From the NCBI RefSeq assembly GCF_017744095.1, contig NZ_JAGHQX010000008.1, positions 124,001 through 188,000 on the forward strand: 64,000 bases of DNA. Reading direction: 5' to 3'. This document shows, one piece after another, positions 36,741 through 54,608 of the stretch (the first letter of the stretch is position 1; every line of letters starts with the position of its first letter). Position numbers and translations under genes: made by a program. The DNA is from Shimia sp. R10_1. Its GTDB lineage: Bacteria; Pseudomonadota; Alphaproteobacteria; Rhodobacterales; Rhodobacteraceae. The notes beneath the pieces are model-generated. The model was given only the letters and a program-made list of their open reading frames with translations. It was not told the DNA's origin and did not search any database.

Positions 36741-36868
36741 CGTGATGGCCAGTGACAAGCGCGCTGCGGAGCTGCTGACAATTCGTAAACCCTTGCGGGC
36801 TAGACTGGGGGATGATCACGGGGGCCTTGAGGCGGGCACCGCTGCCACAGGGGGCAGAAAGGGACAGA

Positions 36869-39491: not shown

Positions 39492-39637
39492 CGAAAGAAA
39501 ATACGAGATTTGGCCTGGCAACATATGCGTTGTGGGCGGTTTTGGTTTCGTTTTGGTGCGAAAAACGCGCCGTTTTCGCGTTGGCGGGCGAAACCTCCTT
39601 GGCGTTTCTTTCGGTTTGAATTAGGACTCGAAAGAAA
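39492..39637. promoter_or_regulatory. Array of CGAAA/TTTCG half-sites upstream of the DeoR gene
   Basis: CGAAAGAAA at 39492-39500, TTTCG-8-CGAAA at 39546-39563, TTTTCG near 39572 with CGAAA near 39588, and a perfect 9-base inverted repeat TTTCTTTCG (39605-39613) / CGAAAGAAA (39629-39637) just before the deoR-type gene. DeoR-family repressors commonly bind TTTCG-type repeats, so autoregulation is likely. Confidence 0.6.
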
Positions 39638-39650
39638 TGGAGGGGAGATG

Positions 39651-40424
39651 ATGAAGGCACGTGCCAAGACCCGCGCCCGTCAGGAAGAGATCCTGAAGCT
39701 GCTCAAACAGGCCGGGCGCGCCATGGTTGAGGAGCTGGCGGAGCGGCTCGACACCACGCCGCAAACCATCCGAAAAGACCTGACCATGCTGGCTGAGGAC
39801 AACCAGATCATCCGCTTTCACGGTGGGGCGACGCTGGCGGCGGGCACGGAATATGCGGGCTTTGATGTGCGCAAGGAAATCATGCGCGATGAGAAGGATG
39901 CAATCGGGGCCACCATCGCCGCTCAAATCCCAAACCATGCCAGTGTGATCCTCAACGGGGGCACCACCACCATGGCTGTGGCCCGCCATCTGAGCCACCA
40001 TGTCGGGCTGAGCGTGGTTGTGGATTCTGTGCATATTGCCAATATTTTAAGAGAGTTTCCCGGCGTTCAGGTGATGATCCCGGCCGGTGTTGTGCGGGGC
40101 GCGGATGGCGCCATTCTTGGGGCCGCAGCGGTTGATTTCATCCGCAAATTTCGCGCCGACATTGCCGTTGTCGGAGCTGCGGCCATGGGGCGGGACGGAG
40201 ATCTTGTGGACTATGATCTGGAGGAAAGCGCGGTCAGCGCCGCGATTATTTCCAGTGCGCGCAACGTGATCCTGGCGCTGGACAGCTCCAAGTTTGGAAG
40301 CTTCGCACCGGTGTCTTTTGGCACGCTGGCGGATGTGAATTCGCTGGTGACCGATGCGCAGTTTGATCCGGAGATGGGAGCACTCGCTGCGGCTCATGGT
40401 GTAGGCTTTGTGGTGGCGGTGTGA
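39651..40424 (+). CDS. DeoR-family transcriptional repressor of the adjacent sugar locus
   Basis: A 257-residue regulator. The N-terminal helix-turn-helix (RQEEILKLLKQAG, MVEELAERLDTTPQTIRKDL, IIRFHGGA) is typical DeoR; the C-terminal sugar-phosphate-sensing domain shows ILNGGTTTMAVARHL, VVVDSVHIANIL and VILALDSSKFGSFA. It probably senses a phosphorylated intermediate of the pathway encoded downstream. In E. coli the sulfoquinovose genes are also under a DeoR-family protein (CsqR/YihW), which fits. ATG at 39651 has GGAGG seven bases upstream; the preceding ATG is too close. Confidence 0.92.
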   Translation: MKARAKTRARQEEILKLLKQAGRAMVEELAERLDTTPQTIRKDLTMLAEDNQIIRFHGGATLAAGTEYAGFDVRKEIMRDEKDAIGATIAAQIPNHASVILNGGTTTMAVARHLSHHVGLSVVVDSVHIANILREFPGVQVMIPAGVVRGADGAILGAAAVDFIRKFRADIAVVGAAAMGRDGDLVDYDLEESAVSAAIISSARNVILALDSSKFGSFAPVSFGTLADVNSLVTDAQFDPEMGALAAAHGVGFVVAV

Positions 40425-40504: not shown

Positions 40505-40533
40505 GCGCGATATTTTTGGGAGGATATATCGCA

Positions 40534-41121
40534 ATGATGTTGGTCTTGCGGCCTTTGGCGTGGGTGAATACCCACATTTTGCGCCTGTGCAGGCGGTTGG
40601 GTGCCTTGGCGCTGGCGCTGATGGTCATCGTGATTCTGACACAGGTTTTCTGCCGTTATGTGCTGAACAACGCCTTGGCCTGGCCGGATGAGGCGGCGCG
40701 ATTCCTGATGTTGTGGCTGGTTGGGCTGATGGCGCCTTCGGCGATGCGCTGGGGCGGGTTTGTGGCGATTGATACGCTGCCCAATATGCTGTCGCGGGTG
40801 CCGGGGCTGGTGCTCAATCTGGTGCTTTTGTGTTTCTCATTTGCGGTGCTGATGATCGCGGTTCAGCACGGGCAGGCGCATACATTTGGGTTTGGTGGCA
40901 ACTTTGACAGCTCCTCGCTGCGTGTGCCGCTGGAGTGGATTGGCGGCGAGGGTTTCAAGATCAAGCTGCGCTATATGTATGGCTCGTTGCTGTTTTGCGC
41001 GGTGATGCTGAGCGTGATCACGGTTGAGCTGATCCTGCGCACGATTATGGCGCTGATCAGCCCGGAGACTGAGCTTCCTGACACCGATGAATTTGCAATG
41101 GCCATGGGGGCGGCGGACTGA
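40534..41121 (+). CDS. TRAP transporter small permease (DctQ type)
   Basis: A 195-residue membrane protein with four predicted helices. ILTQVFCRYVLNNALAWPDEAARF is present in pieces and is the DctQ signature (F-x-R-Y-x3-N ... W-x-E/D-E). Unlike many DctQ proteins there is an extended periplasmic loop (about residues 105-140). The ATG at 40534 is chosen; the longer TTG-start frame places the Shine-Dalgarno sequence inside the gene. It is coupled to the large subunit by TGATG overlap. Confidence 0.9.
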   Translation: MMLVLRPLAWVNTHILRLCRRLGALALALMVIVILTQVFCRYVLNNALAWPDEAARFLMLWLVGLMAPSAMRWGGFVAIDTLPNMLSRVPGLVLNLVLLCFSFAVLMIAVQHGQAHTFGFGGNFDSSSLRVPLEWIGGEGFKIKLRYMYGSLLFCAVMLSVITVELILRTIMALISPETELPDTDEFAMAMGAAD

Positions 41122-42617
41122 TGCTGGCGTTTTTTCTACCGCTTTTCCTGATCTTTCTGATGATCGGCCTGCCGGTGTTTTTTGCACTGCTGCTGTCGCC
41201 GGGTCTGCTGCTCTGGCTCAATGGGCAGGAGCGTGACATCGCGCTGCTCTATCGCAATGTTTACAATGGGATGGACAGTTTTCCGTTGATGGCGTTGCCG
41301 TTTTTCGTGCTCGCAGGTGAGTTGATGAACCGGGGCGGGATCACCACGCGGCTGGTGGAGTTTTCCCAAGCCTTGATGGGGCATCTGCGCGGGGGGCTGG
41401 CGCATGTGAACATCCTGTCCTCGATCCTATTCGCGGGCCTGTCGGGATCGGCTGTGGCGGACACGTCGGCGCTGGGGTCCACGCTCATACCAGCGATGGA
41501 AAAGAACGGCTATTCGCGCAAATTTGCGGCGGCGATCACCGCGGCAAGTTCGGTGATCGGGCCGATCATTCCGCCCTCGGGTATCATGATCATCTACGCC
41601 TATGTGATGGGCGAGAGCGTGGCCGCGCTGTTCCTTGCGGGGATCGTGCCGGGCGTGCTGGTGGGCGTCGGCCTGATGGTGATGGTGCGCCTGATGGCGG
41701 ATAAATATGATCTGCCCAAGGCGGAGCGGATCGTGACCGCCGGGCAGACCATCAGCAAGACCGAAGCGGCATTCAGCTTTGTGCTGCTACGGATCAATTT
41801 TGCCGGTGTGCTGTTTGGGATTTATGCGGCGATCAGCGCCGTTCTGGCGGCCTCCGGTACGGTGATCGCGGTAAACGGCTGGCTGGTGTTCCTTGTCTTT
41901 CTGCCGATTGCCCATGTGATCCTGCTGCGCATTCGCAGGACGGTGAGCGCGGATTTCCGTATCATCTGCAAAAAGGCGGTGGTGCCGCTGCAAACGCCGA
42001 TCATCATTCTGGGCGGCATTCTGGTGGGTGTTTTCACCCCGACCGAGGCCTCCGCTGTCGCCGTGGGCTATGCGCTGGTTGTCGGGCTGTTCATTCTGCG
42101 TCTGCTGAAGGTGCGCGACCTGCCGGGCATTCTGATGCGCGCGGGGCTGGCAAGCGCGACCGTGCTGCTTTTGGTGGGGGCGGCGGTGGCTTTTAAGACT
42201 GTGGTGTCCCTGAGCCATGCGCCGGAGACCATGGCGGGCTTTATCCTTGGCCTGTCAGAAAATCCGCTGGTGCTGCTGTTCCTGATCAACGTGCTGCTGT
42301 TTGCGGTGGGCATGTTTCTGGATGCGGGTCCGGCGATCATCATTCTGGGGCCAATCTTAGGGCCGATCTTTGTCGATCTGGGTGTGCATCCGGTGCATTT
42401 CGCAATCATCATGAGCGTCAACCTGACCGTTGGTCTGGCGACGCCGCCGATGGGGCTCGTGCTGTTTGTGGCCAGTTCGGTTTCCGGGGAACGGGTGGAG
42501 ACAATCGCCAAGGCGATCCTGCCGTTTCTCGCTGTGGAGGTCTTTGTGATCTTCCTCATCACCTATGTGCCTGCCATTTCCATGACAATACCAAGACTAA
42601 CGGGATTTGTGCAGTGA
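41121..42617 (+). CDS. TRAP transporter large permease (DctM type)
   Basis: A 498-residue permease with a dozen hydrophobic segments; somewhat longer than the usual 425-440 residues because of extra helices in the middle (about residues 215-275). MIGLPVFFALLLSPGLL, FAGLSGSAVADTSALGS, VIGPIIPPSGIMIIYA and FTPTEASAVAVGYAL are classical DctM motifs. It couples Na+ flow to uptake of an organic acid-like or sulfonated solute delivered by the DctP protein. Confidence 0.95.
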   Translation: MLAFFLPLFLIFLMIGLPVFFALLLSPGLLLWLNGQERDIALLYRNVYNGMDSFPLMALPFFVLAGELMNRGGITTRLVEFSQALMGHLRGGLAHVNILSSILFAGLSGSAVADTSALGSTLIPAMEKNGYSRKFAAAITAASSVIGPIIPPSGIMIIYAYVMGESVAALFLAGIVPGVLVGVGLMVMVRLMADKYDLPKAERIVTAGQTISKTEAAFSFVLLRINFAGVLFGIYAAISAVLAASGTVIAVNGWLVFLVFLPIAHVILLRIRRTVSADFRIICKKAVVPLQTPIIILGGILVGVFTPTEASAVAVGYALVVGLFILRLLKVRDLPGILMRAGLASATVLLLVGAAVAFKTVVSLSHAPETMAGFILGLSENPLVLLFLINVLLFAVGMFLDAGPAIIILGPILGPIFVDLGVHPVHFAIIMSVNLTVGLATPPMGLVLFVASSVSGERVETIAKAILPFLAVEVFVIFLITYVPAISMTIPRLTGFVQ

Positions 42618-42652: not shown

Positions 42653-43711
42653 ATGTTCAGCAAAACCTTTAAAGCAGTGGCGACAGCCGCGCTGGTCGCG
42701 AGCAGCGCAATCGCCGCGCAGGCGGCGGATTACACCATTCGCGCGACCGCCAACTCCAATGAAAACGACGAGGATTATGACGGCCTCGTGGTCTTCAAAA
42801 ACTTCGTGGAAAGCGCGTCCAACGGGGCCATCGAGGTTGAGTTGTTCATCGGCACGCAGCTCTGCTCCAAAGGGGCGGAATGCCTTCAGGGTGTGGCTGA
42901 CGGCACGATTGACGTCTACATCTCCACCTCTGGCGGCGCGTCGGGCATCTTCCCCTATGTGCAGGTGCTGGACCTGCCGTATCTGATGGCCAATGACCGC
43001 ATTGCAGAGACCGTGCTGGCGGGGGATTTCACCCGCAAAATGCGCGAGATGGCGCTGGCGGATTCCGGTGACAGCATTCGTCTGATGACCATCGGCAACA
43101 CCGGCGGCTGGCGCAACTTTGCCAACACCAAACGCCGCGTGGCGTCGCCATCTGATATGGAAGGCCTGAAGATCCGCACCGTGGTGGCCGACCTGCCGCA
43201 GGAGCTGGTGCGGGCGCTGGGTGCTTCCCCAACTCCGATCCCATGGCCTGAGCTGTTTACCTCTTTTCAGACTGGTGTGGTGGAAGGCTCCAAAAACGGC
43301 ATCACCGACATCATGGGCATGAAATTCCCGGATGCAGGTCTGCAATATGTGACGCTCGATGGGCACGCCTACATGGGTGCGCTGTGGTGGATGAACAACC
43401 AGAAGTTCCTTGGCATGCCTGAAGACATGCGCCGCGTGGTTGTGGATGGCTTCTCCGCGCTGCAGCAGGCCACTTTTGCCTCACCAAAGCGTAAGTCGAT
43501 CAAAGCTTATGAGGATTTTGTCGCCGGTGGCGGGGATCTCTATGTGCCGACACCTGCGGAAAAAGCAGCGTTCAAAGAGGCTGCTGCGCCGGTTTATGAC
43601 TGGTTCAAAGGCAACGTGAAAGGTGGCGAAGAGATCTTTGACGCGCTGACAGCTGCGGTGGCCGACGCAGAGGCGGATATCGAAGCGGGTATGGCGTCTG
43701 ACCTGAACTAA
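42653..43711 (+). CDS. TRAP transporter substrate-binding protein (DctP type)
   Basis: A 352-residue periplasmic protein with signal peptide (cleavage after AIAAQA, near residue 24) and DctP signatures GVADGTIDVYISTSGG, FANTKRRVASPSDMEGLKIRT and TSFQTGVVEGSKNGITD. The last contains the usual Q-x-G-V-V-E-G; the conserved arginine that grips a carboxylate (or here perhaps a sulfonate) is within GLKIRT. Its position in the locus makes a sulfosugar or its glycoside the likely ligand, an inference. Confidence 0.93.
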   Translation: MFSKTFKAVATAALVASSAIAAQAADYTIRATANSNENDEDYDGLVVFKNFVESASNGAIEVELFIGTQLCSKGAECLQGVADGTIDVYISTSGGASGIFPYVQVLDLPYLMANDRIAETVLAGDFTRKMREMALADSGDSIRLMTIGNTGGWRNFANTKRRVASPSDMEGLKIRTVVADLPQELVRALGASPTPIPWPELFTSFQTGVVEGSKNGITDIMGMKFPDAGLQYVTLDGHAYMGALWWMNNQKFLGMPEDMRRVVVDGFSALQQATFASPKRKSIKAYEDFVAGGGDLYVPTPAEKAAFKEAAAPVYDWFKGNVKGGEEIFDALTAAVADAEADIEAGMASDLN

Positions 43712-43778: not shown

Positions 43779-44252
43779 TCACCGGAATGGATAGAGCCAT
43801 GTCCGGTAGTCATCCACCAGAATATGGGCTTTTTGAATTTGCTCGTCCGTCATCTTTTTCACCACTTCCTCAAGGGAAATGGCCGCATCAGGATCGCCTC
43901 CGATCGCGGAAAGTGTGTACCACATGTAGGCGCGCACGAGATCGGGCGCGGGCATGCCCCGGCCGACTTCGTAGTACCAGCCGATGCCGCTCTGAGCGCC
44001 GGCGTGGCCCTTGAGCGAGGCGCGCAGGTACCACTCAAAAGCACGGACGTCATCACGCTCCACCCCCAGCCCAAGCGCGTACATCACGCCAATCAATTCT
44101 TCGGCTTCCGCATTGCCGCTGTTGGCAGCGGGCAGAAGCTCCTGCATCGCTTTGGTGTACTCTTTGGCATCCATGTAATCCCGGCCGGTCTCGATCTCGG
44201 CCAAAACGGGTGTGGTGCTGGCCAAAAGTGCAGCAAAAACAAAGCGTTTCAT
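43779..44252 (-). CDS. Exported Sel1-like repeat protein
   Basis: A 157-residue protein with a signal peptide (MKRFVFAALLASTTPVLA) and tetratricopeptide/Sel1-like repeats (AEELIGVMYALGLGVERDD, AFEWYLRASLKGHAGAQS, VRAYMWYTLSAIGGDPDA). Such repeats usually mediate protein-protein contacts. It is on the opposite strand inside the catabolic locus, convergent with the dctP gene and divergent from the cytochrome gene, whose 5' end it appears to overlap. GAGGGAG precedes the start. Confidence 0.85.
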   Translation of the reverse strand: MKRFVFAALLASTTPVLAEIETGRDYMDAKEYTKAMQELLPAANSGNAEAEELIGVMYALGLGVERDDVRAFEWYLRASLKGHAGAQSGIGWYYEVGRGMPAPDLVRAYMWYTLSAIGGDPDAAISLEEVVKKMTDEQIQKAHILVDDYRTWLYPFR

Positions 44253-45572
44253 TCTTTCTCCCTCATCGCAGTTCTTGGCGCTCTCACGTGTGCGCCCGCG
44301 TATGGGAGCCCGCTTCCGCAGCCGTTGCAAGAGGATGATTTCATCCAGTTTGACCCGCGTCAGGCCAAGATCGGGCAGCTCTTGTTTTTTGATCCGATCC
44401 TGTCGGGCAACCGCAACATTGCCTGCGCCACCTGTCACCATCCGGAGCTGGGGTCCGGCGACGGGCTGAGCCTTGGGATTGGCGAGGGTGGTGACGGGCT
44501 GGGGCGGGAGCGGACGCCGGGCACAGGGGACAGCCGGATTGTGAAACGCATCCCGCGCAATGCACCGGCGCTGTGGAATCTGGCGGCGAAAGAGATCGAC
44601 ATCCTGTTTCACGACGGCCGCCTGTCGGTGAGCGATATTTATGAGACCGGTTTTGACAGCCCGGCGCAGGAATGGCTGCCGGGTGGGTTGAATTCAATCC
44701 TTGCGGCGCAGGCGCTGTTTCCAATGACCGCTGAGTTTGAGATGGCGGGCAATCCGAAGGAAAACCAGATCGCAGGGGCGGTCTATGACCGGATCGACAA
44801 TGTCTGGCCGATTGTGGCCAAACGGGTGCGGATCATCCCGGAATATGCGGAGATGTTCATTGCCGCCTATGACGATGTAGATCAGCCGCTCGACATCAAT
44901 ATCACCCATATTGTCAACGCTTTGGCGGCCTTTGAGGGCACGGAGTTCAAGAGCTATGATAGCCCGTTTGATGCCTATCTGAACGGTGACGAAACGGCGC
45001 TGAATGCCGAACAAAAGGCCGGTATGGATCTGTTTTACGGCAAGGCGATGTGCAGCAGTTGTCATGCGGGGCCGCTGATGACGGATCAGAAGTTTCACGC
45101 GCTGATGTTGCCGCATTTTGGCCCCGGAAAGACGCGCCAATGGGATCCGATTGTGCGCGACGTGGGGCGCATGGGGGCGTCGGACCGGTTGGAGGATGCC
45201 TACCGCTTTCGCACGCCCGCGCTGCGCAATGTGGCGTTGACGGCGCCTTATGGCCACAACGGGGCGTATGACAGTCTTGAGGGCATGGTGCGCCATCACA
45301 TGGACCCGCGCGGCGCCTTTGCGGCTTGGGAAAAGGACAACGCGGTGCTGCCGGAGGTGCCGTGGTTGGCGAAGGTGGATTTTCTGGCCTTTTCTGACAC
45401 GCGGGAGCGGGCGCGTTTGGCCTCGCGTACCGATATTGAGCGGATTGAGCTTGATGATGCCGAGGTGGCGCAGATCGTGGCGTTTTTGCATGCGCTGACC
45501 GGGACGGAGAGCATCAAGGGGCGGCTGGGCGTGCCGGACAGCGTGCCAAGTGGGCTGGAGGTGCCGGAATGA
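44241..45572 (+). CDS. Di-heme cytochrome c peroxidase / MauG-family protein, start codon unclear
   Basis: A roughly 440-residue periplasmic di-heme protein. Two c-type heme motifs are seen: CATCH near 44431-44445 and CSSCH near 45051-45065; NAPALWN, HDGRLS and RTPALRNVALTAPYGHNG are family landmarks. A typical signal peptide (KAFHSFSLIAVLGALTC, ending APAYG) begins near 44241, but no ATG, GTG or TTG lies in frame for more than 100 bases upstream, and the frame there runs antisense to the Sel1 gene. The true start is therefore undefined: a rare start codon, a frameshift in this region, or a mis-extended N-terminus. It overlaps the sugar kinase gene by four bases, so it is translated with the pathway operon. 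Confidence 0.8.
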   Translation, partial: KAFHSFSLIAVLGALTCAPAYGSPLPQPLQEDDFIQFDPRQAKIGQLLFFDPILSGNRNIACATCHHPELGSGDGLSLGIGEGGDGLGRERTPGTGDSRIVKRIPRNAPALWNLAAKEIDILFHDGRLSVSDIYETGFDSPAQEWLPGGLNSILAAQALFPMTAEFEMAGNPKENQIAGAVYDRIDNVWPIVAKRVRIIPEYAEMFIAAYDDVDQPLDINITHIVNALAAFEGTEFKSYDSPFDAYLNGDETALNAEQKAGMDLFYGKAMCSSCHAGPLMTDQKFHALMLPHFGPGKTRQWDPIVRDVGRMGASDRLEDAYRFRTPALRNVALTAPYGHNGAYDSLEGMVRHHMDPRGAFAAWEKDNAVLPEVPWLAKVDFLAFSDTRERARLASRTDIERIELDDAEVAQIVAFLHALTGTESIKGRLGVPDSVPSGLEVPE

Positions 45573-46456
45573 GCAGGATCCTGTGCGTCGGCGCGGCGGT
45601 GGTGGATTTTGTCTTTCACCTGCCAGACTTGCCCAATCGGGCGGAGAAATACGGCACGGAAGAAGCGGACATCGTGGGGGGCGGCTGTGCCGCCAATGCT
45701 GCTGTGGCGATTGCGCGGATGGGTGGCGCGGCCGTGCTGGGCGCGCGGCTGGGGGAGGACAGCATTGGCGACATGATCGTGGCGGATCTGGCGCGCGAAG
45801 GCGTGGATGTCTCCAATGTCACGCGCACGGCGGGGGCGCAGAGTTCCTATTCGTCGGTGCTGATAGATGCGCAGGGAGAACGCCAGATTGTGAATTTCCG
45901 CGGGGCGGGGCTGGTGCTGAACACCGACTGGTTTGACGGCCTGACCGATCTGGGCGCGGTGCTGACGGACACGCGGCGAGTGGATGCGGCGCTGGCGGCG
46001 TTGGAGCTGGCCCGTGCGCGGGGTATTCCCGGAATTCTGGACGGGGAAGCGCCGATTGATCCGGCGCTGATGGGGGCTGCAAGCCATGTGGCGCTGTCGA
46101 TGCAGGGGCTGCGCTCGCTTTATCCGGGGGCGGGTATCGAAGAGGCGCTTTTACAGATCGCGGAGGAACACGACTGCTGGGCCTGTGTGACCGACGGGGC
46201 GGATGGCGTTTGGTTTACTGATGGGGGCGCGGTGCGCCATGTGGCGGCCTTCCCGATCAGCCCAATTGATACGCTGGGCGCGGGTGACGTCTGGCACGGT
46301 GTTTTTGCGCTGATGCTCGCAGAGGGCATGGGCGCTGAAGAGGCAATCCGTCACGCAAACGGCGCGGCGGCCCTGAAATGTTTGACAAAAGGCGGGCGGG
46401 CCGGAGCTCCGAGCCGCGCTCAACTCAACGACTTCCTTAAGGAGACGAAGGTATGA
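45569..46456 (+). CDS. PfkB-family sugar kinase, probable sulfofructose kinase
   Basis: A 295-residue ribokinase-fold kinase. The substrate loop GGGCAANAAVAIARMG and the ATP/catalytic motif DTLGAGDVWHG (residues 234-244, base Asp near 240) are intact. Several stretches resemble the E. coli sulfofructose kinase YihV as I recall it: VLTDTRR, ILDGE, and the C-terminal AALKCLTKGGRAGAP (YihV: AALKCTRPGGRAGIP). It would phosphorylate 6-deoxy-6-sulfofructose at C1. It overlaps both neighbours by four bases (ATGA), so it is firmly in the operon. Another ketose substrate cannot be excluded from sequence alone. Confidence 0.82.
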   Translation: MSRILCVGAAVVDFVFHLPDLPNRAEKYGTEEADIVGGGCAANAAVAIARMGGAAVLGARLGEDSIGDMIVADLAREGVDVSNVTRTAGAQSSYSSVLIDAQGERQIVNFRGAGLVLNTDWFDGLTDLGAVLTDTRRVDAALAALELARARGIPGILDGEAPIDPALMGAASHVALSMQGLRSLYPGAGIEEALLQIAEEHDCWACVTDGADGVWFTDGGAVRHVAAFPISPIDTLGAGDVWHGVFALMLAEGMGAEEAIRHANGAAALKCLTKGGRAGAPSRAQLNDFLKETKV

Positions 46457-47481
46457 TTTCCCTGACACCCGGCAAGCTGAGCGGGATGCGCCGCATGGCC
46501 GATGAGAACGGCATTTACAAGATGACCGCCGTGGATCAGCGCCCGCCGATCAAGGGCCCGATTGCGAAACATCACGGGGTGGAGACCGCGCCGTGGGAGG
46601 AGGTCGCAAAGTTCAAAGGCATGCTGGTGGAGACGCTTCAGGCACATTCCACTGCGATGCTGCTCGACCCACACTACGCCATTCCCTACAGCTTTGATGC
46701 GCTCTTGCCGCACAAGGGGCTGGTGGTCACGCTGGAGGACAGCCTGTTCAAGGAAACCCCCGGTGGGCGGCTCTCTGACAGCATCGACAACTGGTCGGTG
46801 GGCAAGATCAAGCGCATGGGTGGTGACGCGGTGAAGGTGCTGGCCTGGTATCGGCCGGATGCCTCAGACGCGGTCAATCAGGCGCAGAAGGACTATGTGA
46901 AACAGGTGGGCGAAGCCTGTGCAAAATATGACATTCCTTTCCTGTTCGAGCTGTTGGTTTATCCGCTGGCCGCAGACGCCCATCAGACCAAGGAATACGT
47001 GGAGATGAAGGGCAAGAAGGCCGATGACGTTCTGAAATCGGTCGAGGAGTTTGCCAAGGCGGACTACGGCGTGGATGTGTTTAAGCTCGAAAGCCCGGTG
47101 AATGCGGCGGATGCGGATGGCTCTGCCGAGGTGCAGGCGGTGTTTGATGAGATGGGGCGTCTTGCTGGTCGGCCCTGGGTGATGCTGTCGGCAGGGGCGG
47201 GCAAAGCGGAGTTCCGCAATGTGCTGGAGCATGCATTCAAAGCAGGGGCGAGCGGTTTTCTGGCCGGGCGGGCGATCTGGCTCGATGCCTTCAATGCTTA
47301 TCCGGATTGGGACGCGGTGCGCGCCGGGCTTGAGGGCGATGCGGTGGACTACATGAAAGACATCTCTGCCTTGGCGGATGCGCAGGCGGCCAATTGGGCG
47401 CAGCACAGCTGTTATGGCACAGGCGGCGCGCGGCTGCTGGCCGATGATGCCAGATTCCGCAACAGTTACGCAGACATCTGA
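46453..47481 (+). CDS. Class I aldolase of the LacD/YihT type, probable sulfofructose-1-phosphate aldolase
   Basis: A 342-residue TIM-barrel aldolase. MTAVDQRP (near residue 24), VKVLAWYRPD, VFKLESP near 208-214 with the Schiff-base lysine near 211, PWVMLSAGAG and AGASGFLAGRAIW match the tagatose-bisphosphate / sulfofructose-phosphate aldolases (YihT has LYKVEMP and GASGFLAGRAVW). It would split 6-deoxy-6-sulfofructose 1-phosphate into DHAP and 3-sulfolactaldehyde. The protein is longer than YihT, closer to LacD. Co-translated with the kinase gene. Confidence 0.82.
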   Translation: MISLTPGKLSGMRRMADENGIYKMTAVDQRPPIKGPIAKHHGVETAPWEEVAKFKGMLVETLQAHSTAMLLDPHYAIPYSFDALLPHKGLVVTLEDSLFKETPGGRLSDSIDNWSVGKIKRMGGDAVKVLAWYRPDASDAVNQAQKDYVKQVGEACAKYDIPFLFELLVYPLAADAHQTKEYVEMKGKKADDVLKSVEEFAKADYGVDVFKLESPVNAADADGSAEVQAVFDEMGRLAGRPWVMLSAGAGKAEFRNVLEHAFKAGASGFLAGRAIWLDAFNAYPDWDAVRAGLEGDAVDYMKDISALADAQAANWAQHSCYGTGGARLLADDARFRNSYADI

Positions 47482-47493
47482 GGGCATAAGCGC

Positions 47494-48876
47494 ATGAAAC
47501 TCGGCATTCTTCCATTGGGGCGTCCCACCTTTGACGTGCCCTTTGCAGAGGAAAACCTAACCGCGATGCTGGCGGCTTTGGAAGCGACCGGCCATGAGAT
47601 TGTTGGCCCGCGTGAGCTGCTGTTTGATGAGGCGGCGACCAAAGCGGGCATTGCCGCGCTGAAGGCCGCGGAGGTGGATCAGGTGATGATCCTGCAGGTC
47701 ACCTTTACTGACGCGTCGATGACCGTGGCGATTGGCGCGGCGTTTGAGCAGCCGCTGTCGATCTGGTCGATCCCAGAGCCGCGTTTGGGTGGGCGACTGC
47801 GGCTGAACTCTTTCTGTGGGCTCAATCTGGCGAGCCATGCTTTGGGTCTGAACAACCGTGCCTTTGGCTGGCTTTATGCGGACCCGACAGGCGATGTGGC
47901 TGCGGATTTGACCGCCATGCTCGCGGGCGCGCGGCCCTCAGGTAAGCTGGCGCTGGGCGCGGTGCCGGAGGCCACAGAGGCGGGCCGGGCGATTGCCAAA
48001 GCGGTGAACGGGCAGCGGATTGCGCGGATTGGCGAACATCCGGCGGGGTTTGACACCTGCGCCTATGACAAGGCGGATATGAAGGCGCTGTCCGGCGTTG
48101 AGGTGGATGAGCTGGCGCTGGACGATCTGTTTGATCTGGCCCGCGCGGTGCCTGCCGAGGCCGCCGCCGAAGTGCGCAAGCAGGCGGATGCGGAGCTGTC
48201 GGGGCTGGATGAAGTGGACCCGGAAGAGCTGGACCGCTCACTGCGCCTGAAGGTGGGGCTGGATACGCTCAAAGCAAACGGCGGCTACGGGGCCTTTGCC
48301 ATTCGCTGCTGGCCAGAGACGTTTACCGAATATGGCGGCGCGGTCTGTGGCCCGGCGTCGATGATGGGGGAGGCGCGGGTGCCTTGCGCCTGTGAGGCGG
48401 ATGTGTACGGCGCGCTCACGCAGATGGTTCTGGCAGCGGCGGCGGATGCGCCGGTGTTTCTGACCGATCTGGTGGATATGGACGCGGATGATGACACCGG
48501 TGTGGTCTGGCACTGCGGACAGGCCCCGATCTCGATGATCGCGCCGGAGGTGCAGGCCGAGGCGACCATTCACACCAACCGCAAGCAACCGCTGCTCTAT
48601 CAGTTTCCGCTGAAGGCCGGTGAGGTCACGCTGATGCGGATCAGTCAGGCGCATGGGCGGCGGCATATGGTTTTGAGCCATGCCATGATGCTGACGCGGC
48701 CAATGTCTTTTACCGGCACGTCTGGGGTCTTGCGTTTTGGGCGCGGGGCGGGTGATGTGCTGAGCGATATCATTGCGAGCGGGCTCGAGCATCATATGGC
48801 TCTGGCTTATGGCGATCATCGGGTCGCCCTGCGTGGCGCTGCGGGGGCCATGGGGCTGCCGCTTTTGGAGATTTAA
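47494..48876 (+). CDS. L-fucose/arabinose isomerase-family protein, probable sulfoquinovose isomerase
   Basis: A 460-residue protein with the fold and layout of L-fucose isomerase-type enzymes: N-terminal alpha/beta part (MKLGILPLGRPTFDVPF, VMILQVTFTDASMTVAI), a central part with AIRCWPETFTEYGGAVCGPASMMGE, and a C-terminal beta-rich part (ISQAHGRRHMVLSHAMM). In sulfoglycolysis by the transaldolase and some EMP-type routes, sulfoquinovose isomerases come from this family instead of the YihS type. Twelve bases after the aldolase gene. A role in aldose-ketose interconversion is well supported; the exact sugar is inferred from the neighbours. Confidence 0.75.
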   Translation: MKLGILPLGRPTFDVPFAEENLTAMLAALEATGHEIVGPRELLFDEAATKAGIAALKAAEVDQVMILQVTFTDASMTVAIGAAFEQPLSIWSIPEPRLGGRLRLNSFCGLNLASHALGLNNRAFGWLYADPTGDVAADLTAMLAGARPSGKLALGAVPEATEAGRAIAKAVNGQRIARIGEHPAGFDTCAYDKADMKALSGVEVDELALDDLFDLARAVPAEAAAEVRKQADAELSGLDEVDPEELDRSLRLKVGLDTLKANGGYGAFAIRCWPETFTEYGGAVCGPASMMGEARVPCACEADVYGALTQMVLAAAADAPVFLTDLVDMDADDDTGVVWHCGQAPISMIAPEVQAEATIHTNRKQPLLYQFPLKAGEVTLMRISQAHGRRHMVLSHAMMLTRPMSFTGTSGVLRFGRGAGDVLSDIIASGLEHHMALAYGDHRVALRGAAGAMGLPLLEI

Positions 48877-48877
48877 G

Positions 48878-49963
48878 ATGACGATACGATATGGCCTGAT
48901 CGGGTCAGGCATGATGGGGCAGGAGCATATCCGCAACCTCACCCTGCTTCAGGGCTGTGAGGTGACAGCGGTGAGCGACCCGGATGCGGGCATGCGCCAG
49001 CTGTCGGTGGAAAGCTCGGGTGGAACCGCCAAAGCCTTTGGTGACTATAAAGAGATGCTGGGGTCCGGTCTGGTGGATGCGCTGTTGATTGCCGCGCCCA
49101 ATGACACGCATCATGAAATCCTGCTGGATGTATTAGAGACACCGCACCCGATTTTGGTGGAAAAGCCGCTGTGCACCACATCGGCGCATTGTTCCGAGGT
49201 TCTGGCAAAGGCTGAGGGGCGGGCAGCGCCGGTCTGGGTGGCGATGGAGTATCGCTATATGCCCCCGGTTCAGCGTTTGCTGAAGGAGTTGAACGACGGC
49301 ACCCTGGGCACGCCGCGCATGATGGCGATCCGCGAGCACCGCTTTCCGTTTCTGGAAAAGGTTGGTGATTGGAACCGGTTCAATGCGCGCACGGGCGGCA
49401 CATTGGTGGAGAAATGCTGCCACTTCTGGGATCTGATGCGGCTGACGCTGCAGAGCGATCCGGTGCGGGTTTACGCCAGCGCGGGTGTGGATGTGAACCA
49501 TCTGGATGAGGCCTATGACGGGCGCACGCCGGATATTCTGGACAACGCTTTTGTCACCGTTGAGTTTGCCAATGGGGCGCGCGGGATGCTGGATCTGTGC
49601 ATGTTTGCAGAAGGCTCTTACTGGCAGGAGACTATTGCCGTGACCGGCGAAAAGGCGCGGGTGGAGGCCAAGGTGCCGGGGCCTGCGCGGTTTACCCATG
49701 ATGGCAAAGAGCGCCACAGCGAGGTGGAGATTAGCCACCGCGCGACCAAAGAGGTGGTGCGCGAAGAGGTCGAGGTGGATGAAAAGGTGTTGCAGGCCGG
49801 CGATCACCATGGCTCGACCTATTTTCAGCACGAACGCTTCCGCGATCTGGTGATGCGCGGGCAGGGTGAACCCGAAGTGAGCCTACAGGATGGGCTTTGG
49901 TCGGTGCGTGTGGGCGAGGCGGCCGAGGAAAGCGCGCGCAGCGGGCAGGCGGTGACCCTGTGA
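48878..49963 (+). CDS. Gfo/Idh/MocA-family NAD-dependent protein, candidate NAD-dependent sulfoquinovosidase (GH188-like)
   Basis: A 361-residue Rossmann-fold protein: GLIGSGMMGQEHI at residues 5-17, the EKP motif in ILVEKPLCTT near 94, and TLVEKCCHFWDLMRL in the C-terminal substrate domain. It starts one base after the isomerase gene, so it belongs to the operon. Members of this superfamily near sulfoquinovose genes were recently shown to hydrolyse sulfoquinovosides by transient NAD-linked oxidation (family GH188), and no GH31 sulfoquinovosidase (YihQ) is present here. That makes this the best candidate for releasing the free sulfosugar. A simple sugar dehydrogenase remains possible. Confidence 0.7.
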   Translation: MTIRYGLIGSGMMGQEHIRNLTLLQGCEVTAVSDPDAGMRQLSVESSGGTAKAFGDYKEMLGSGLVDALLIAAPNDTHHEILLDVLETPHPILVEKPLCTTSAHCSEVLAKAEGRAAPVWVAMEYRYMPPVQRLLKELNDGTLGTPRMMAIREHRFPFLEKVGDWNRFNARTGGTLVEKCCHFWDLMRLTLQSDPVRVYASAGVDVNHLDEAYDGRTPDILDNAFVTVEFANGARGMLDLCMFAEGSYWQETIAVTGEKARVEAKVPGPARFTHDGKERHSEVEISHRATKEVVREEVEVDEKVLQAGDHHGSTYFQHERFRDLVMRGQGEPEVSLQDGLWSVRVGEAAEESARSGQAVTL

Positions 49964-50958
49964 GTGACGTCTGGGGCCATATGCCGGATGGCAGCGCGGT
50001 GCATCGGATCACGCTCACGGGCGGCGGGCTGACTGCCCATCTGCTGACCTATGGCGCGGTGTTACAGGATTTGCGGCTGGCGGGGCATGACGCGCCCTTG
50101 GTGCTGGGGTTTCCTGAGTTTGCGCCCTATCTGACCCATTCGCCTTACTTTGGGGCCACGGCGGGGCGGTTTGCGAACCGCATTCGAGACGGGCATCTGG
50201 AACTGGACGGGCAAAGCTATCAGCTCGATCGCAACTTCATCGGCACGCACACGCTGCACGGTGGGGCGGACAGCATGGGCAAGCGTCTGTGGGAGATCGC
50301 GGCGGAGGCGGAAGACAGCGCGACGCTGCAGATCACGCTGCCCGATGGCCATATGGGCTTTCCCGGCAACCTGACTGCACGGGTGACATTTGCGCTCCTT
50401 GACGGCGGCGTGCTGGACATTCGTATGAGGGCCGAGACGGACAAGGCGACGCTGTGCAGTCTGGCGCATCACAGCTATTTCAAGCTGGATGATGTAGAGA
50501 CGATTTCAGAGCACAGTCTTCAGATTGCTGCAGAGAGCTATCTGCCGGTGGATGCGGAGCTGATCCCAACCGGTGAACAGGCGCCTGTTGCGGGCACCTG
50601 CTTTGATTTCCGCCAAGGCGCGCCGGTGAAACAGGCGCATCCGGTGGATCACAATTATTGCTTGTCTGACAAACGCGAAGCCTTGCGTCCGGTGGCCGTG
50701 CTTAAATCTGCGGCATCCGGGGTGACAATGCGCTGTTTGACCACCGAGCCGGGTTTACAGGTTTATGATGGCACCCATATCGATATAGCGCTGCCCGGAT
50801 TGGATGGGCGCGCCATGGGGGGCTTCAGTGGGCTTGCGATGGAGCCGCAAGTCTGGCCAGATGCGCCGCATCACGCGACATTCCCACAGGCCGTGCTGCG
50901 GCCTGATGAGACTTATCAACAACACACGCAGTTCGTCTTTTCGAAAGGGCAAACATGA
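49960..50958 (+). CDS. Aldose 1-epimerase (mutarotase)
   Basis: A 332-residue galactose-mutarotase-like protein. Visible are YFGATAGRFANRI, the His in THTLHGGADSMGKRLW near residue 97-100, HHSYFKL near 169 and the catalytic Glu candidate in GLAMEPQVWPDAP near 295. It equilibrates sugar anomers; E. coli sulfoquinovose genes also include a mutarotase (YihR). The GTG at 49960 overlaps the previous stop by four bases; an internal ATG at 49981 is an alternative. Confidence 0.88.
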   Translation: MSDVWGHMPDGSAVHRITLTGGGLTAHLLTYGAVLQDLRLAGHDAPLVLGFPEFAPYLTHSPYFGATAGRFANRIRDGHLELDGQSYQLDRNFIGTHTLHGGADSMGKRLWEIAAEAEDSATLQITLPDGHMGFPGNLTARVTFALLDGGVLDIRMRAETDKATLCSLAHHSYFKLDDVETISEHSLQIAAESYLPVDAELIPTGEQAPVAGTCFDFRQGAPVKQAHPVDHNYCLSDKREALRPVAVLKSAASGVTMRCLTTEPGLQVYDGTHIDIALPGLDGRAMGGFSGLAMEPQVWPDAPHHATFPQAVLRPDETYQQHTQFVFSKGQT

Positions 50959-52403
50959 GCAACTTCAATGGATTGATGCTGGAAGCCAACCTGATTGGTG
51001 GCCAGTGGGTGGGCGCAGACAATGGCGCGACCACAGAGATCACAAACCCTGCAACCGGCGCGGTGCTTGGCACGGTGCCAGACGCGGGTGGCGCAGAAAC
51101 CGAGCGCGCCATTGCCGCCGCGTCCCAAGCGTTTAAAAGCTGGTCCAAAACCACGCTGGCAGAGCGCGTGGGCTTGCTGCACAAGCTGCATGATGCGCTG
51201 ATGGACAACCAAGAAGACCTTGCGCAGCTGCTGACCGCAGAGCAGGGCAAGCCGCTGTTTGAGGCGCGCGGCGAGATCGCGATTGGCGCGGCCTATGTGC
51301 GCTGGTTTGCCGAGGAAATCCGACGCACCAAAGGCGAGATCATTCCGGCCCCCACCAATGACAAACGCCTTCTGGTGACCCACCATCCGGTGGGCGTGGT
51401 GGGCATGATCACGCCATGGAACTTCCCAAGCTCCATGCTGGCGCGCAAGATTGCACCGGCGCTGGCGGCGGGCTGTACCGTTGTGGCCAAGCCTGCGCCA
51501 CAGACGCCCTATAGCGGTCTGGTCTGGGGCAAGCTGTGTCAGGACGTCGGCTTCCCAGATGGTGTGGTCAACATCGTGACCGGCGATGCGCCTGCGATTG
51601 GCGGCGCGATCATGAGCAACAAAGAGGTGCGTAAAGTGACCTTCACCGGCTCCACGGGCGTGGGCAAACTGTTGCTGCGTCAGGCAGCGGATCAGGTGAA
51701 GAAGGTCTCCATGGAGCTGGGCGGCAATGCGCCGTTCATCGTGTTTGACGACGCCGATCTCGATGCCGCTGTCGAAGGCGCGATGATCGCGAAGTTCCGC
51801 AACATGGGGCAGACCTGTGTCTGTACCAACCGTTTCTATGTGCAGGCGGGCATTCACGATGCCTTTGTGGCCAAGCTGAAAGACGCGATTGCGGCGATGA
51901 AGATTGGCGATGGCACCGAGGATGGCGTGGTGCAGGGACCGTTGATTGACGAGAACGCGGTCAAGAAGGTGGAAGGCATGATTGCTGACGCCAAGGCCAA
52001 GGGCGGCGAGGTTGTGCTGGGCGGCGGACGCCATGCGCTGGGCCAGACTTTCTTTGAGCCGACCCTGATCACCGGCGCGACATCGGAGATGCAGTTCACG
52101 TCTGACGAGATATTTGGCCCGCTGGCGGCGATCTACAAGTTTGAGGACGAAGAGGATGCCGTGGCGGCGGCCAATGCCACCGACTATGGCCTCGCGGCCT
52201 ATGCCTACACCAAAGATCTCGCCCGTGCGTTCCGCATGAACGAAAATCTGGAGTACGGCATGGTGGGCGTGAATTCCGGCCTGATCACAACTGTCGAGGC
52301 GCCCTTTGGCGGCGTGAAAGAAAGCGGCATGGGCAAAGAGGGCGGCAGCCAAGGTTTGGATGATTACATGATCACCAAATACACCTGTGTCGCCGGGCTC
52401 TAA
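50955..52403 (+). CDS. NAD(P)-dependent aldehyde dehydrogenase, probable sulfolactaldehyde dehydrogenase
   Basis: A 482-residue aldehyde dehydrogenase of the succinate-semialdehyde (GabD) type. Catalytic residues are present: Glu in SMELGGNAPF near 254, Cys in GQTCVCTNRF near 287, and the NAD-binding TFTGSTGVGK. In Entner-Doudoroff-type sulfoglycolysis the sulfolactaldehyde dehydrogenase is a GabD homologue, so here it would oxidise 3-sulfolactaldehyde to 3-sulfolactate. Overlaps the mutarotase gene by four bases. Confidence 0.85.
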   Translation: MSNFNGLMLEANLIGGQWVGADNGATTEITNPATGAVLGTVPDAGGAETERAIAAASQAFKSWSKTTLAERVGLLHKLHDALMDNQEDLAQLLTAEQGKPLFEARGEIAIGAAYVRWFAEEIRRTKGEIIPAPTNDKRLLVTHHPVGVVGMITPWNFPSSMLARKIAPALAAGCTVVAKPAPQTPYSGLVWGKLCQDVGFPDGVVNIVTGDAPAIGGAIMSNKEVRKVTFTGSTGVGKLLLRQAADQVKKVSMELGGNAPFIVFDDADLDAAVEGAMIAKFRNMGQTCVCTNRFYVQAGIHDAFVAKLKDAIAAMKIGDGTEDGVVQGPLIDENAVKKVEGMIADAKAKGGEVVLGGGRHALGQTFFEPTLITGATSEMQFTSDEIFGPLAAIYKFEDEEDAVAAANATDYGLAAYAYTKDLARAFRMNENLEYGMVGVNSGLITTVEAPFGGVKESGMGKEGGSQGLDDYMITKYTCVAGL

Positions 52404-52427: not shown

Positions 52428-53345
52428 ATGATTTTGATCACAGAGTTCATGGATGACACGGCGGTGGGGCGGCTGAAGGCGGCCCACAGCACCACCTATG
52501 CGCCAGAACTGGCCGATGCGCAGGGCGATATCCCTGCGCAGATGGCCGGGGTGCAGGCGCTGATTGTGCGCAACCGGACGCAGGTCACGGCTGCGTTGCT
52601 CGATGCGGCGCCAGATCTGAAATGCGTTGGGCGCTTGGGCGTCGGGCTCGACAATATCGATGTGGCGGCCTGTGAGGCACGGGGCGTGGAGGTGATGCCT
52701 GCGCTTGGGGCCAATACGTTGTCGGTGGCGGAATATGTGGTGACCAATGCCGCCATTCTGCTGCGTGACGCCTATCAGGCCAATGCGGCGATGTTGGCTG
52801 GCGATTGGCCGCGCGCAGAGTGTTCCGGCCGTGAGGCGGGCGGGCGTGTGCTCGGCCTGCTGGGCTTTGGCGCCAATGCGCAGGAAACCGGCCGTCTGGC
52901 GCGGGCCATGGGGATGACGCTGATCGCCTATGATCCGTTTTTGCCGGAAGATCACCCGGCGTGGCAGCATGCGGAGCGCGGCGAGATTGCGGATGTGTTG
53001 GCCAAGGCGGATGTGGTGAGCCTGCATGTGCCGCTGACCGATCAGACGCGCCATATGATGAACGCTGAAGCCTTTGCTCAGATGAAACCGGGGGCTGTGG
53101 TGATCAATGCGGCGCGGGGCGGTGTGCTTGATGAAGCGGCGCTGGTGGCGGCGATGCGCTCTGGCCACATCGCAGGCGCGGCACTGGATGTTTTTGAAAC
53201 CGAACCTCTGACGCAAGATGCGGCAGAGAGATTCAAAGGGGTCAGCAATTTGATCCTGACCCCGCATATCGCGGGGGTCACGCAGGACAGCAATGTGCGC
53301 GTGAGTGCAATGATCGCCGATCTGGTGCTTGACCGGTTGGCGTGA
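52428..53345 (+). CDS. slcC: D-isomer-type 2-hydroxyacid dehydrogenase, probable (S)-sulfolactate dehydrogenase
   Basis: A 305-residue NAD-dependent dehydrogenase of the phosphoglycerate-dehydrogenase family. Cofactor loop LGLLGFGANAQETG near residue 143, catalytic Arg in INAARGGVLDE near 230, Glu in VFETEPL near 259 and His in TPHIAGVT near 280. It lies between an aldehyde dehydrogenase gene and the sulfopyruvate decarboxylase genes, which is where an SlcC enzyme oxidising (S)-sulfolactate to sulfopyruvate is expected. Symbol is by context as well as family. Confidence 0.78.
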   Translation: MILITEFMDDTAVGRLKAAHSTTYAPELADAQGDIPAQMAGVQALIVRNRTQVTAALLDAAPDLKCVGRLGVGLDNIDVAACEARGVEVMPALGANTLSVAEYVVTNAAILLRDAYQANAAMLAGDWPRAECSGREAGGRVLGLLGFGANAQETGRLARAMGMTLIAYDPFLPEDHPAWQHAERGEIADVLAKADVVSLHVPLTDQTRHMMNAEAFAQMKPGAVVINAARGGVLDEAALVAAMRSGHIAGAALDVFETEPLTQDAAERFKGVSNLILTPHIAGVTQDSNVRVSAMIADLVLDRLA

Positions 53346-53366: not shown

Positions 53367-53873
53367 ATGGCTACAAAGATGGATCAGCAGATCGTCAATG
53401 ATCTGAAGGCAGCGGGGATCGACTATGTCACCTCGGTGCCGTGTAAACAGCTGGCGGGCGTGATTGAGGTGCTTGATGAGACCTCCGAGATCATGCACAT
53501 GCCCTCCAACAAGGAAGACGAAGGCATGGGGCTGTGCGCCGGGGCCTTTATGGGCGGCATGAAGCCTTGCATCGTGATGCAGAACACCGCGCTGGGCGTG
53601 GTGGTGAACACGCTCGCGACACTCATCCAGTTCTATCAGATCCCGCTGCCCATGCTGATTTCCTATCGCGGGGAAGTGGGCGAGCCGGTGGCCTGTCAGG
53701 TGGAGATGGCGCTGCACACCAAAGCGATCCTGAACCAGCTGCACATTCCGACCTATCACTTCCACAAGCCGGAGGATGCGGCCGAGCTGCCGGGCATTCT
53801 GGAATATTGTCAGATGTCGTCCAAGCCGGTCGCCATTCTTTGTGACGCATCTTTCTGGAGGGCCTCGGCATGA
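53367..53873 (+). CDS. comD: Sulfopyruvate decarboxylase subunit alpha
   Basis: A 168-residue thiamine-enzyme subunit equal to the N-terminal (PYR) domain of decarboxylases. YVTSVPCKQLAGVIE, PSNKEDEGMGLCAGAFMGG (with the glutamate that activates thiamine diphosphate) and QNTALGVVVNTLATL are the sulfopyruvate/phosphonopyruvate decarboxylase signatures. The alpha/beta split into two short genes is typical of sulfopyruvate decarboxylase. It would decarboxylate sulfopyruvate to sulfoacetaldehyde with ComE. Overlaps comE by four bases; GGGAGGAACG precedes the ATG. Confidence 0.9.
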   Translation: MATKMDQQIVNDLKAAGIDYVTSVPCKQLAGVIEVLDETSEIMHMPSNKEDEGMGLCAGAFMGGMKPCIVMQNTALGVVVNTLATLIQFYQIPLPMLISYRGEVGEPVACQVEMALHTKAILNQLHIPTYHFHKPEDAAELPGILEYCQMSSKPVAILCDASFWRASA

Positions 53874-54424
53874 TCCGCAATGACGTATTTCAGACGCTGA
53901 AACCGATCATCAGCGAGCATCTTGTGGTCTGTAACATCGGCGCGCCGAGCCAGGAGCTGCATGCGATGGACGATCAGCCGTCCAATTTCTACATGCTGGG
54001 CACCATGGGGCTGGCGTCGTCTATTGGTCTGGGGCTGGCAGCGGCGCAGGACAAGCCGGTGATCGCGATTGACGGGGACGGCTCTGTGCTCACAAACCTC
54101 GGCACGCTCGCGACCATTGGCAACAACGCGCAAGGCAACTTCACGCTGTTGATCATCGACAATGGCTCTTATGGCTCCACCGGGGATCAGCCGACCTATG
54201 CGGGGATGAACACCGACCTGGCGGCCGTGGCCCGGGCCTGTGGCGCGCAGAACGTGCAGACCGTTTCGGCGGAGGACACGGCGGCGGCGGTGCAGGCGGC
54301 GATTGCCAGCGACGAGATGACCATCATCGTCTCCAAATGTGAGAGCGGCAATGTGAAGGTGCCGGTGATCAAGACCAATCCGATCGTGATCCGCGAGCGC
54401 TTTATGGAAGAGGTGCGGCGCTGA
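53870..54424 (+). CDS. comE: Sulfopyruvate decarboxylase subunit beta
   Basis: A 184-residue partner of ComD, equal to the C-terminal thiamine-diphosphate-binding domain. The motif starts at IDGDGSVLTNLGTLATIGN near residue 66 and ends at the conserved IIDNGSYGSTGDQPTY near 97. MGLASSIGLGLAAAQDKP is the usual preceding helix. Together with ComD it forms the decarboxylase. It is the last gene of the operon, followed by a terminator; sulfoacetaldehyde acetyltransferase (xsc) does not follow. Confidence 0.9.
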   Translation: MIRNDVFQTLKPIISEHLVVCNIGAPSQELHAMDDQPSNFYMLGTMGLASSIGLGLAAAQDKPVIAIDGDGSVLTNLGTLATIGNNAQGNFTLLIIDNGSYGSTGDQPTYAGMNTDLAAVARACGAQNVQTVSAEDTAAAVQAAIASDEMTIIVSKCESGNVKVPVIKTNPIVIRERFMEEVRR

Positions 54425-54460: not shown

Positions 54461-54493
54461 AAAGGGGCACCGTTCTGAGTGCCCTTTTTTTAT
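54461..54493 (+). terminator. Terminator after comE
   Basis: AAAGGGGCAC pairs with GTGCCCTTTT (one bulged G) over an 8-base loop, followed by a run of T residues. It closes the sulfonate operon. Confidence 0.8.
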
Positions 54494-54608
54494 TGGGTCA
54501 GACGGATTTGCGCTTTGTTGCGGAGAAAAAAGGGGCCGGTTGTGGCTTGATAATTCTCGCGCGGGCGTGGATCATCGCGCCACCAACTTTATCAGGGGAG
54601 TGAAATTG

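Follow-up and report, generated by a model that had tools for sequence, protein, structure and literature searches.

We find that the open reading frame at positions 48878-49963 of a 64,000-nucleotide stretch of the Shimia sp. R10_1 genome (hereafter the window) very probably encodes SqgA, a predicted sulfoquinovosidase of GH188, a recently described family of NAD-using enzymes that make a common sulfur sugar of plants available. The frame is open and its first base lies one nucleotide past the isomerase frame, whose stop closes at 48876. Coordinates and Pfam matches (PF01408, 73.4 bits; PF02894, 97.5; PF22725, 62.1) thus agree with the first-pass annotation, which had noted a Gfo/Idh/MocA member one base past the isomerase gene, and its reading of that member as a probable NAD-dependent sulfoquinovosidase of the GH188 type is supported by PDB scores, residues, tree and fold. 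Since the family has been published, as have its placement in clusters of the sulfo-EMP type and how abundant it is among Roseobacters, the window protein is a further member of a known family. The gene and its surroundings are as follows.

39510..40424, + strand: DeoR-family regulator, true start probably inside the ORF (PF00455, PF08220)
40516..41121, + strand: TRAP transporter DctQ (PF04290)
41121..42617, + strand: TRAP transporter DctM (PF06808)
42653..43711, + strand: TRAP binding protein DctP (PF03480; many DctP structures match, none of them decisive for the ligand)
44301..45572, + strand: di-haem protein of the cytochrome c peroxidase/MauG family (PF03150, 119 bits; two CxxCH motifs; PDB matches are di-haem peroxidases)
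45569..46456, + strand: PfkB kinase, probable sulfofructose kinase (from its best PDB match)
46453..47481, + strand: LacD/DeoC-family aldolase, probable sulfofructose-phosphate aldolase (PF01791; role from context)
47494..48876, + strand: SftI-like isomerase of the sulfoquinovose isomerase family (NF048012, 248.3 bits, below the cut-off of 700)
48878..49963, + strand: sqgA, predicted GH188 NAD-dependent sulfoquinovosidase, 361 aa (PDB sequence matches, contact residues, tree, fold)
49960..50958, + strand: aldose 1-epimerase, probable sulfoquinovose (SQ) mutarotase (PF01263, 254 bits; its GTG start overlaps the sqgA stop)
50955..52403, + strand: SSADH-like aldehyde dehydrogenase, probable sulfolactaldehyde dehydrogenase (PF00171, TIGR01780; role from context)
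52428..53345, + strand: D-isomer-type 2-hydroxyacid dehydrogenase, probable sulfolactate dehydrogenase (PF02826/PF00389)
53367..53873, + strand: ComD, sulfopyruvate decarboxylase alpha (TIGR03845, 158.6 bits, over the cut-off of 147.95)
53870..54424, + strand: ComE, sulfopyruvate decarboxylase beta (TIGR03846, 231.4 bits, over the cut-off of 221.5)
54461..54488, + strand: terminator-like hairpin with T run, 3' of comE (hairpin scan, position)

Among PDB sequences, the window protein matches 8zn9 at 417.4 bits, 8qc3 at 416.9 and 8qc2 at 403.9 (E of about 1e-120 or below, far beyond chance), and the next match, 3ezy, reaches 75.3 bits. Identical residues number 193/357, 195/358 and 189/359 for the three GH188 structures, respectively, or about 53-54% over the full length. 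The alpha-N-acetylgalactosaminidase 2IXA, which we take to be a GH109 enzyme, is alike in its Gfo/Idh fold but scores only 35.2 bits against the sqgA protein. An analogous NAD redox mechanism for such GH109 enzymes is given in PMC10755693. The same paper describes the founding structures of GH188, FlSqgA from Flavobacterium sp. K172 (8QC2, 8QC8) and ArSqgA from Arthrobacter sp. U41 (8QC3, 8QC5, 8QC6). The window protein resembles ArSqgA and FlSqgA in full-length identity (54% and 53%), in eight mapped contacts and in fold; unlike them, it has an alphaproteobacterial host and a different gene set that includes a TRAP transporter and ComDE, and its function here is assigned by sequence. 8ZN9, deposited under the title 'A vast marine sulfonate-based carbon cycle fueled by novel sulfoquinovosidases', is likewise 54% identical with the same fold and contacts and, judged by eye only, is more like a second GH188 type of the genus (see below) than like that of the window.

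To examine the active site, we mapped the contact positions of the ArSqgA complex in PMC10755693 by alignment of the window protein, the three crystallised enzymes, 80 loci from named genomes, eight Gfo/Idh paralogs from the window's own genome and 3ezy. The contacts given there are Lys107, Tyr136, Arg166, Leu170 (through its amide), Lys172, Glu189, His193 and His321, and all eight are identical in the window protein. The sulfonate triad Arg166/Leu170/Lys172 becomes R155/L159/K161, so the positively charged sulfonate pocket, whose absence the first-pass annotation had named as counting against its reading, is present in its residues. Lys107, Tyr136, Glu189, His193 and His321 correspond to K96, Y125, E178, H182 and H310, and the contact to the C4 hydroxyl (Glu189, hence E178) is kept. 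Each site carries the same letter in 80 of 80 GH188 loci except K96, where the count is 79 of 80; the exception is a gap in a single locus (L078) that aligns from residue 111 only. According to PMC10755693, the sulfonate-binding residues are unique to SqgA. Because position 170 is Leu (L159), the window protein falls outside the GH188 groups described in PMC11465081, in which Tyr replaces Leu170. Glu163 as numbered in PMC10755693 corresponds to Val in our ArSqgA numbering and to Arg in the window protein; the invariant Glu is at 164 (E153 in the window protein).

A first tree of 35 rows placed one of the genome's own paralogs, with a branch length of 10, inside GH188, and the family needed two changes in it. 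Because of this, three long-branch paralogs (L002_own, L008_own and L009_own) were left out of a second tree, whose 38 rows comprise 32 GH188 sequences, chosen from 84, and six other Gfo/Idh proteins, with no GH4 or GH109 sequences. GH188 forms one side of a branch supported at 100/99 in the second tree, so the grouping with plain sugar or inositol dehydrogenases that had been named beforehand as speaking against the assignment did not occur. The closest partner of the window protein is from Shimia haliotis, and five long branches are still found among the outgroup rows.

An AlphaFold2 model, computed from an alignment of the window protein with 23 related loci, has a mean pLDDT of 90.6 and a pTM of 0.90, with the blocks around the sulfonate site among the weaker (mean pLDDT of 68 for residues 151-160 and 75 for 161-170). 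The first 12 ranks of a Foldseek search with this model are GH188 chains, with TM scores of 0.90-0.96 by query length. A further 38 rows among the matches listed are other Gfo/Idh proteins at TM scores of 0.71-0.84 and 16-23% identity. The protein is thus predicted, as modelled, to have the two-domain Gfo/Idh fold of SqgA.

These data also bear on two other explanations. A plain NAD-dependent sugar or inositol dehydrogenase, present in the operon by chance, would belong to the same Pfam superfamily, and the best NCBIfam match of the window protein is indeed inositol 2-dehydrogenase (TIGR04380). However, that match, at 116.9 bits, is far below the curated cut-off of 355, and inositol dehydrogenases in the PDB score at most 60 bits against 404-417 for GH188. 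The Arg/Lys pair that holds the sulfonate is found in none of the eight other Gfo/Idh/MocA proteins found in the same genome (L005 has Arg at the Lys172 site only), and 3ezy has Ala and a gap at the two positions. Together with the GH188 branch in the tree, this makes a dehydrogenase exceedingly improbable, and we rejected the IolG/sugar dehydrogenase reading of sqgA on scores, residues and tree.

A glycosidase of the GH188 type could also act on a different sulfonated sugar, for example a sulfofucoside, and feed a tagatose-like route. The aldolase of the operon belongs to the tagatose-bisphosphate aldolase family, and PMC12421959 has kinase and aldolase homologues that possibly act on 4-epimeric intermediates but reports no candidate sulfofucosidase. 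Against a sulfofucoside, E178, which contacts the C4 hydroxyl, is retained along with the rest of the contacts in the SQ complex, the best PDB match of the kinase is a sulfofructose kinase, and within the same genus GH188 occurs with a DctP about 86% identical to that of the window in apparent sulfo-SMO clusters. We therefore regard this explanation as quite unlikely, and a GH188 sulfoquinovosidase remains our reading of the window protein.

The first-pass annotation had also pointed out that the operon lacks a GH31 sulfoquinovosidase. This holds for the entire genome: a profile search for the GH31 domain PF01055 at E<=0.001 gave no match in the window's genome, and as a control the same domain was matched in 6 of 14 well-known genomes. 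A GH31 enzyme as the alternative sulfoquinovosidase is rejected on this basis. Across 25 genomes of the genus, 8 have weak PF01055 matches (21-24 bits over about 120-130 domain residues, inside frames of 730 aa). Five of these eight exceed the cut-off of 23.5, and four of the eight also carry the close type of sqgA described below, which 7 genomes have in all. We take these proteins for distant relatives rather than YihQ-type sulfoquinovosidases; given such matches, the statement that GH188 occurs where GH31 is absent holds for the window's genome, not for the genus. In four Shimia genomes (G005, G006, G010 and G021) a weak match of this kind (about 23-24 bits, 730-aa frames) shares a contig with sqgA, at a distance of 25-40 kb.

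The operon holds one candidate gene for each member of the sulfo-EMP set: isomerase, kinase, aldolase and aldehyde dehydrogenase. Of these four, the kinase alone finds a sulfosugar enzyme at the top of its PDB matches (sulfofructose kinase, 174 bits, with an unspecified sugar kinase a close second at 170.6). For the aldolase, the best PDB match is 8tnf, a DUF2090 protein, at 320 bits, with tagatose-bisphosphate aldolases at about 143 and a sulfofructosephosphate aldolase at 61; the isomerase had no match in a PDB sequence search. The aldehyde dehydrogenase reaches 639.1 bits with TIGR01780, against a cut-off of 646.35, and its best PDB matches are succinate-semialdehyde dehydrogenases, with 8c54, presumably a sulfolactaldehyde dehydrogenase, sixth among the eight matches listed. 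By name, we take the 2-hydroxyacid dehydrogenase at 52428..53345 to be SlcC-like. Four-base overlaps are found at five junctions of the operon, counting sqgA/epimerase if the epimerase begins at the GTG at 49960. A hairpin scan, which returned 17 hairpins with T runs where shuffled sequence averaged 13.5, proves nothing by itself; it is position and T run that favour the site at 54461..54488. A promoter scan gave 3 sites against a shuffle mean of 4.6 and hence nothing usable. Past the hairpin 3' of comE lies the gene for a family 5 ABC-type binding protein (54606-56189, + strand), which has no ABC permease gene directly after it and is kept in just 2 of 80 GH188 loci. At the other end of the region, two frames (35466-36740 and 36812-38059, + strand) encode proteins of 424 and 415 aa with no Pfam match and are flanked by short-chain dehydrogenase and ABC-2/ABC genes.

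We propose that sulfoquinovosyl glycerol or some other SQ glycoside enters the cell through the TRAP transporter and that cytosolic SqgA would bind NAD+ and hold the sulfonate through R155, K161 and the amide of L159. Following the transient NAD-linked oxidation at C3 described for GH188 in PMC10755693, the enzyme would oxidise C3, eliminate the aglycone, add water and reduce C3 again, which would yield SQ with no net NADH. SQ would then be mutarotated, isomerised to sulfofructose, phosphorylated and split to DHAP and sulfolactaldehyde, and the latter oxidised to sulfolactate and on to sulfopyruvate. ComDE would decarboxylate sulfopyruvate to sulfoacetaldehyde, and desulfonation by Xsc would release sulfite. 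The kinase/aldolase/isomerase logic that leads to sulfolactaldehyde is that of the hybrid sulfo-EMP/EMP2 clusters described in PMC12890257, which covers hybrid sulfo-EMP1/2 gene sets in Proteobacteria and mentions 2025 work on marine GH188, and in PMC13372026, which covers hybrid sulfo-EMP/EMP2 in Vibrio. Unlike those clusters, the operon of the window adds the hydroxyacid dehydrogenase and ComDE, so that sulfolactate is probably not the end product. Xsc is encoded elsewhere in the genome (913.8 bits, cut-off 676.4) at a locus that by ORF reading alone also has acetate kinase, phosphotransacetylase, an aminotransferase and a taurine-type binding protein. PF04295, which we take to cover sulfolactate sulfo-lyase, was not found in the window's genome; its absence argues against a sulfo-lyase route, which we set aside, and favours ComDE-Xsc. 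We infer every step of catalysis, which substrate is imported and what the other neighbours act on, and we judge the whole route from SQ glycoside to sulfite to be likely, if with some reserve.

Clusters of related content are known. According to PMC10755693, GH188 genes occur without GH31 in sulfo-EMP, -ED, -SFT, -SMO and -SDO clusters and throughout Roseobacters; the family of ArSqgA and FlSqgA is thus also found in sulfo-EMP clusters without GH31, as here. We compared 80 GH188 loci, the best 80 of at least 592 relatives, which are by this choice close (56-91% identity). Using tblastn at 1e-10, we find the isomerase in 65, the aldolase in 57, the kinase in 56, DctM and the hydroxyacid dehydrogenase in 50 each, the epimerase in 46, the di-haem gene in 36, the aldehyde dehydrogenase in 31, and each of ComD and ComE in 8. 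Many of the loci are truncated where the contig stops, and paralogs may account for some of the weak matches. All 16 queried genes are present in Shimia haliotis, whose SqgA is 91% identical.

Within the genus, 14 of 25 genomes have GH188 (E<=1e-80), in two types. A close type of sqgA (77-100% identity) is found in exactly the 7 genomes that have the isomerase, and a second type (51-54% identity) in 7 others, none with the isomerase. We examined the surroundings of the second type in 3 of its 7 genomes (L096, L097 and L098), where it is about 50-53% identical to that of the window. In L098, GH188 lies beside genes for a luciferase-like monooxygenase, an aldo/keto reductase, a flavin reductase and a GntR regulator. 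The monooxygenase scores 695 bits with 7olf and 683 with 7oh2, against 188 for the next match; the depositors name both as sulfonate enzymes, and we take them to be SmoC structures. Judged by eye, three ORFs at L096 and L097 (384, 296 and 236 aa) begin alike and follow the same order as in L098; ORF picking missed a flavin reductase and DctQ at these two loci. We take all three to be sulfo-SMO clusters. With the second GH188 type beside monooxygenase, aldo/keto reductase and TRAP genes, the genus would have two SQ pathways that share a related gateway enzyme and transporter.

The di-haem gene sits between dctP and the kinase gene; its stop overlaps the kinase start, and it has no ordinary start codon near its signal-peptide-like beginning. 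A Sel1-repeat protein gene (43779-44612, - strand), matched in 13 of the 80 GH188 loci, adjoins it. For 56 of the 80 loci the sequence extends a full 10 kb upstream. Of these, 35 have a DctM of at least 65% identity, and 32 of the 35 carry the di-haem gene, against 0 of the 21 that have no such DctM; the loci are related, so these counts are not independent trials. Identity to the window's proteins at L096-L098 is 75-77% for DctM, about 86% for DctP and 58-60% for the di-haem protein. Every one of the 14 GH188 genomes of the genus has a di-haem copy no more than about 9 kb away from GH188 (7 at 78-100% and 7 at 57-60% identity). Of the 11 genomes without GH188, 7 have a copy at 45-49% and 4 have none at E<=1e-60. 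A survey of 120 genomes from the family found GH188 in 57 of them. DctP (E<=1e-110) is present in 42, of which 40 also have GH188, 37 of them within 10 kb. The di-haem gene (E<=1e-130) is found in 30 of the 120, with 22 copies within 12 kb of GH188 and 7 near neither GH188 nor DctP, and 15 of the 42 DctP genomes lack it at this threshold. The link of the di-haem gene to GH188 and the TRAP genes is strong but not universal.

The newer observation may be that the di-haem gene keeps company with dctQMP and GH188 in clusters of two distinct chemistries, sulfo-EMP and presumed sulfo-SMO; among the literature matches listed, no title or abstract opening joins a di-haem peroxidase or MauG with sulfoquinovose use, and such a link may be in print. 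Tentatively, and with more doubt than confidence, we suggest that DctQMP and the di-haem CCP/MauG protein form a conserved Roseobacter-type module for uptake of SQ glycosides, which is plugged together with GH188 into different pathways, and that the di-haem protein is an unrecognised periplasmic redox partner. If this is true, it might for example remove peroxide from sulfite autoxidation or modify a protein of the uptake system.

As the marine abundance of GH188 is already in print, what is gained here is a well-supported annotation and a testable lead in the di-haem gene. For the organism, the annotation means that it can probably use SQ glycosides, beyond free SQ alone. With ComDE in the operon and Xsc elsewhere in the genome, it might take them all the way to sulfite unaided, not leaving sulfolactate for others.
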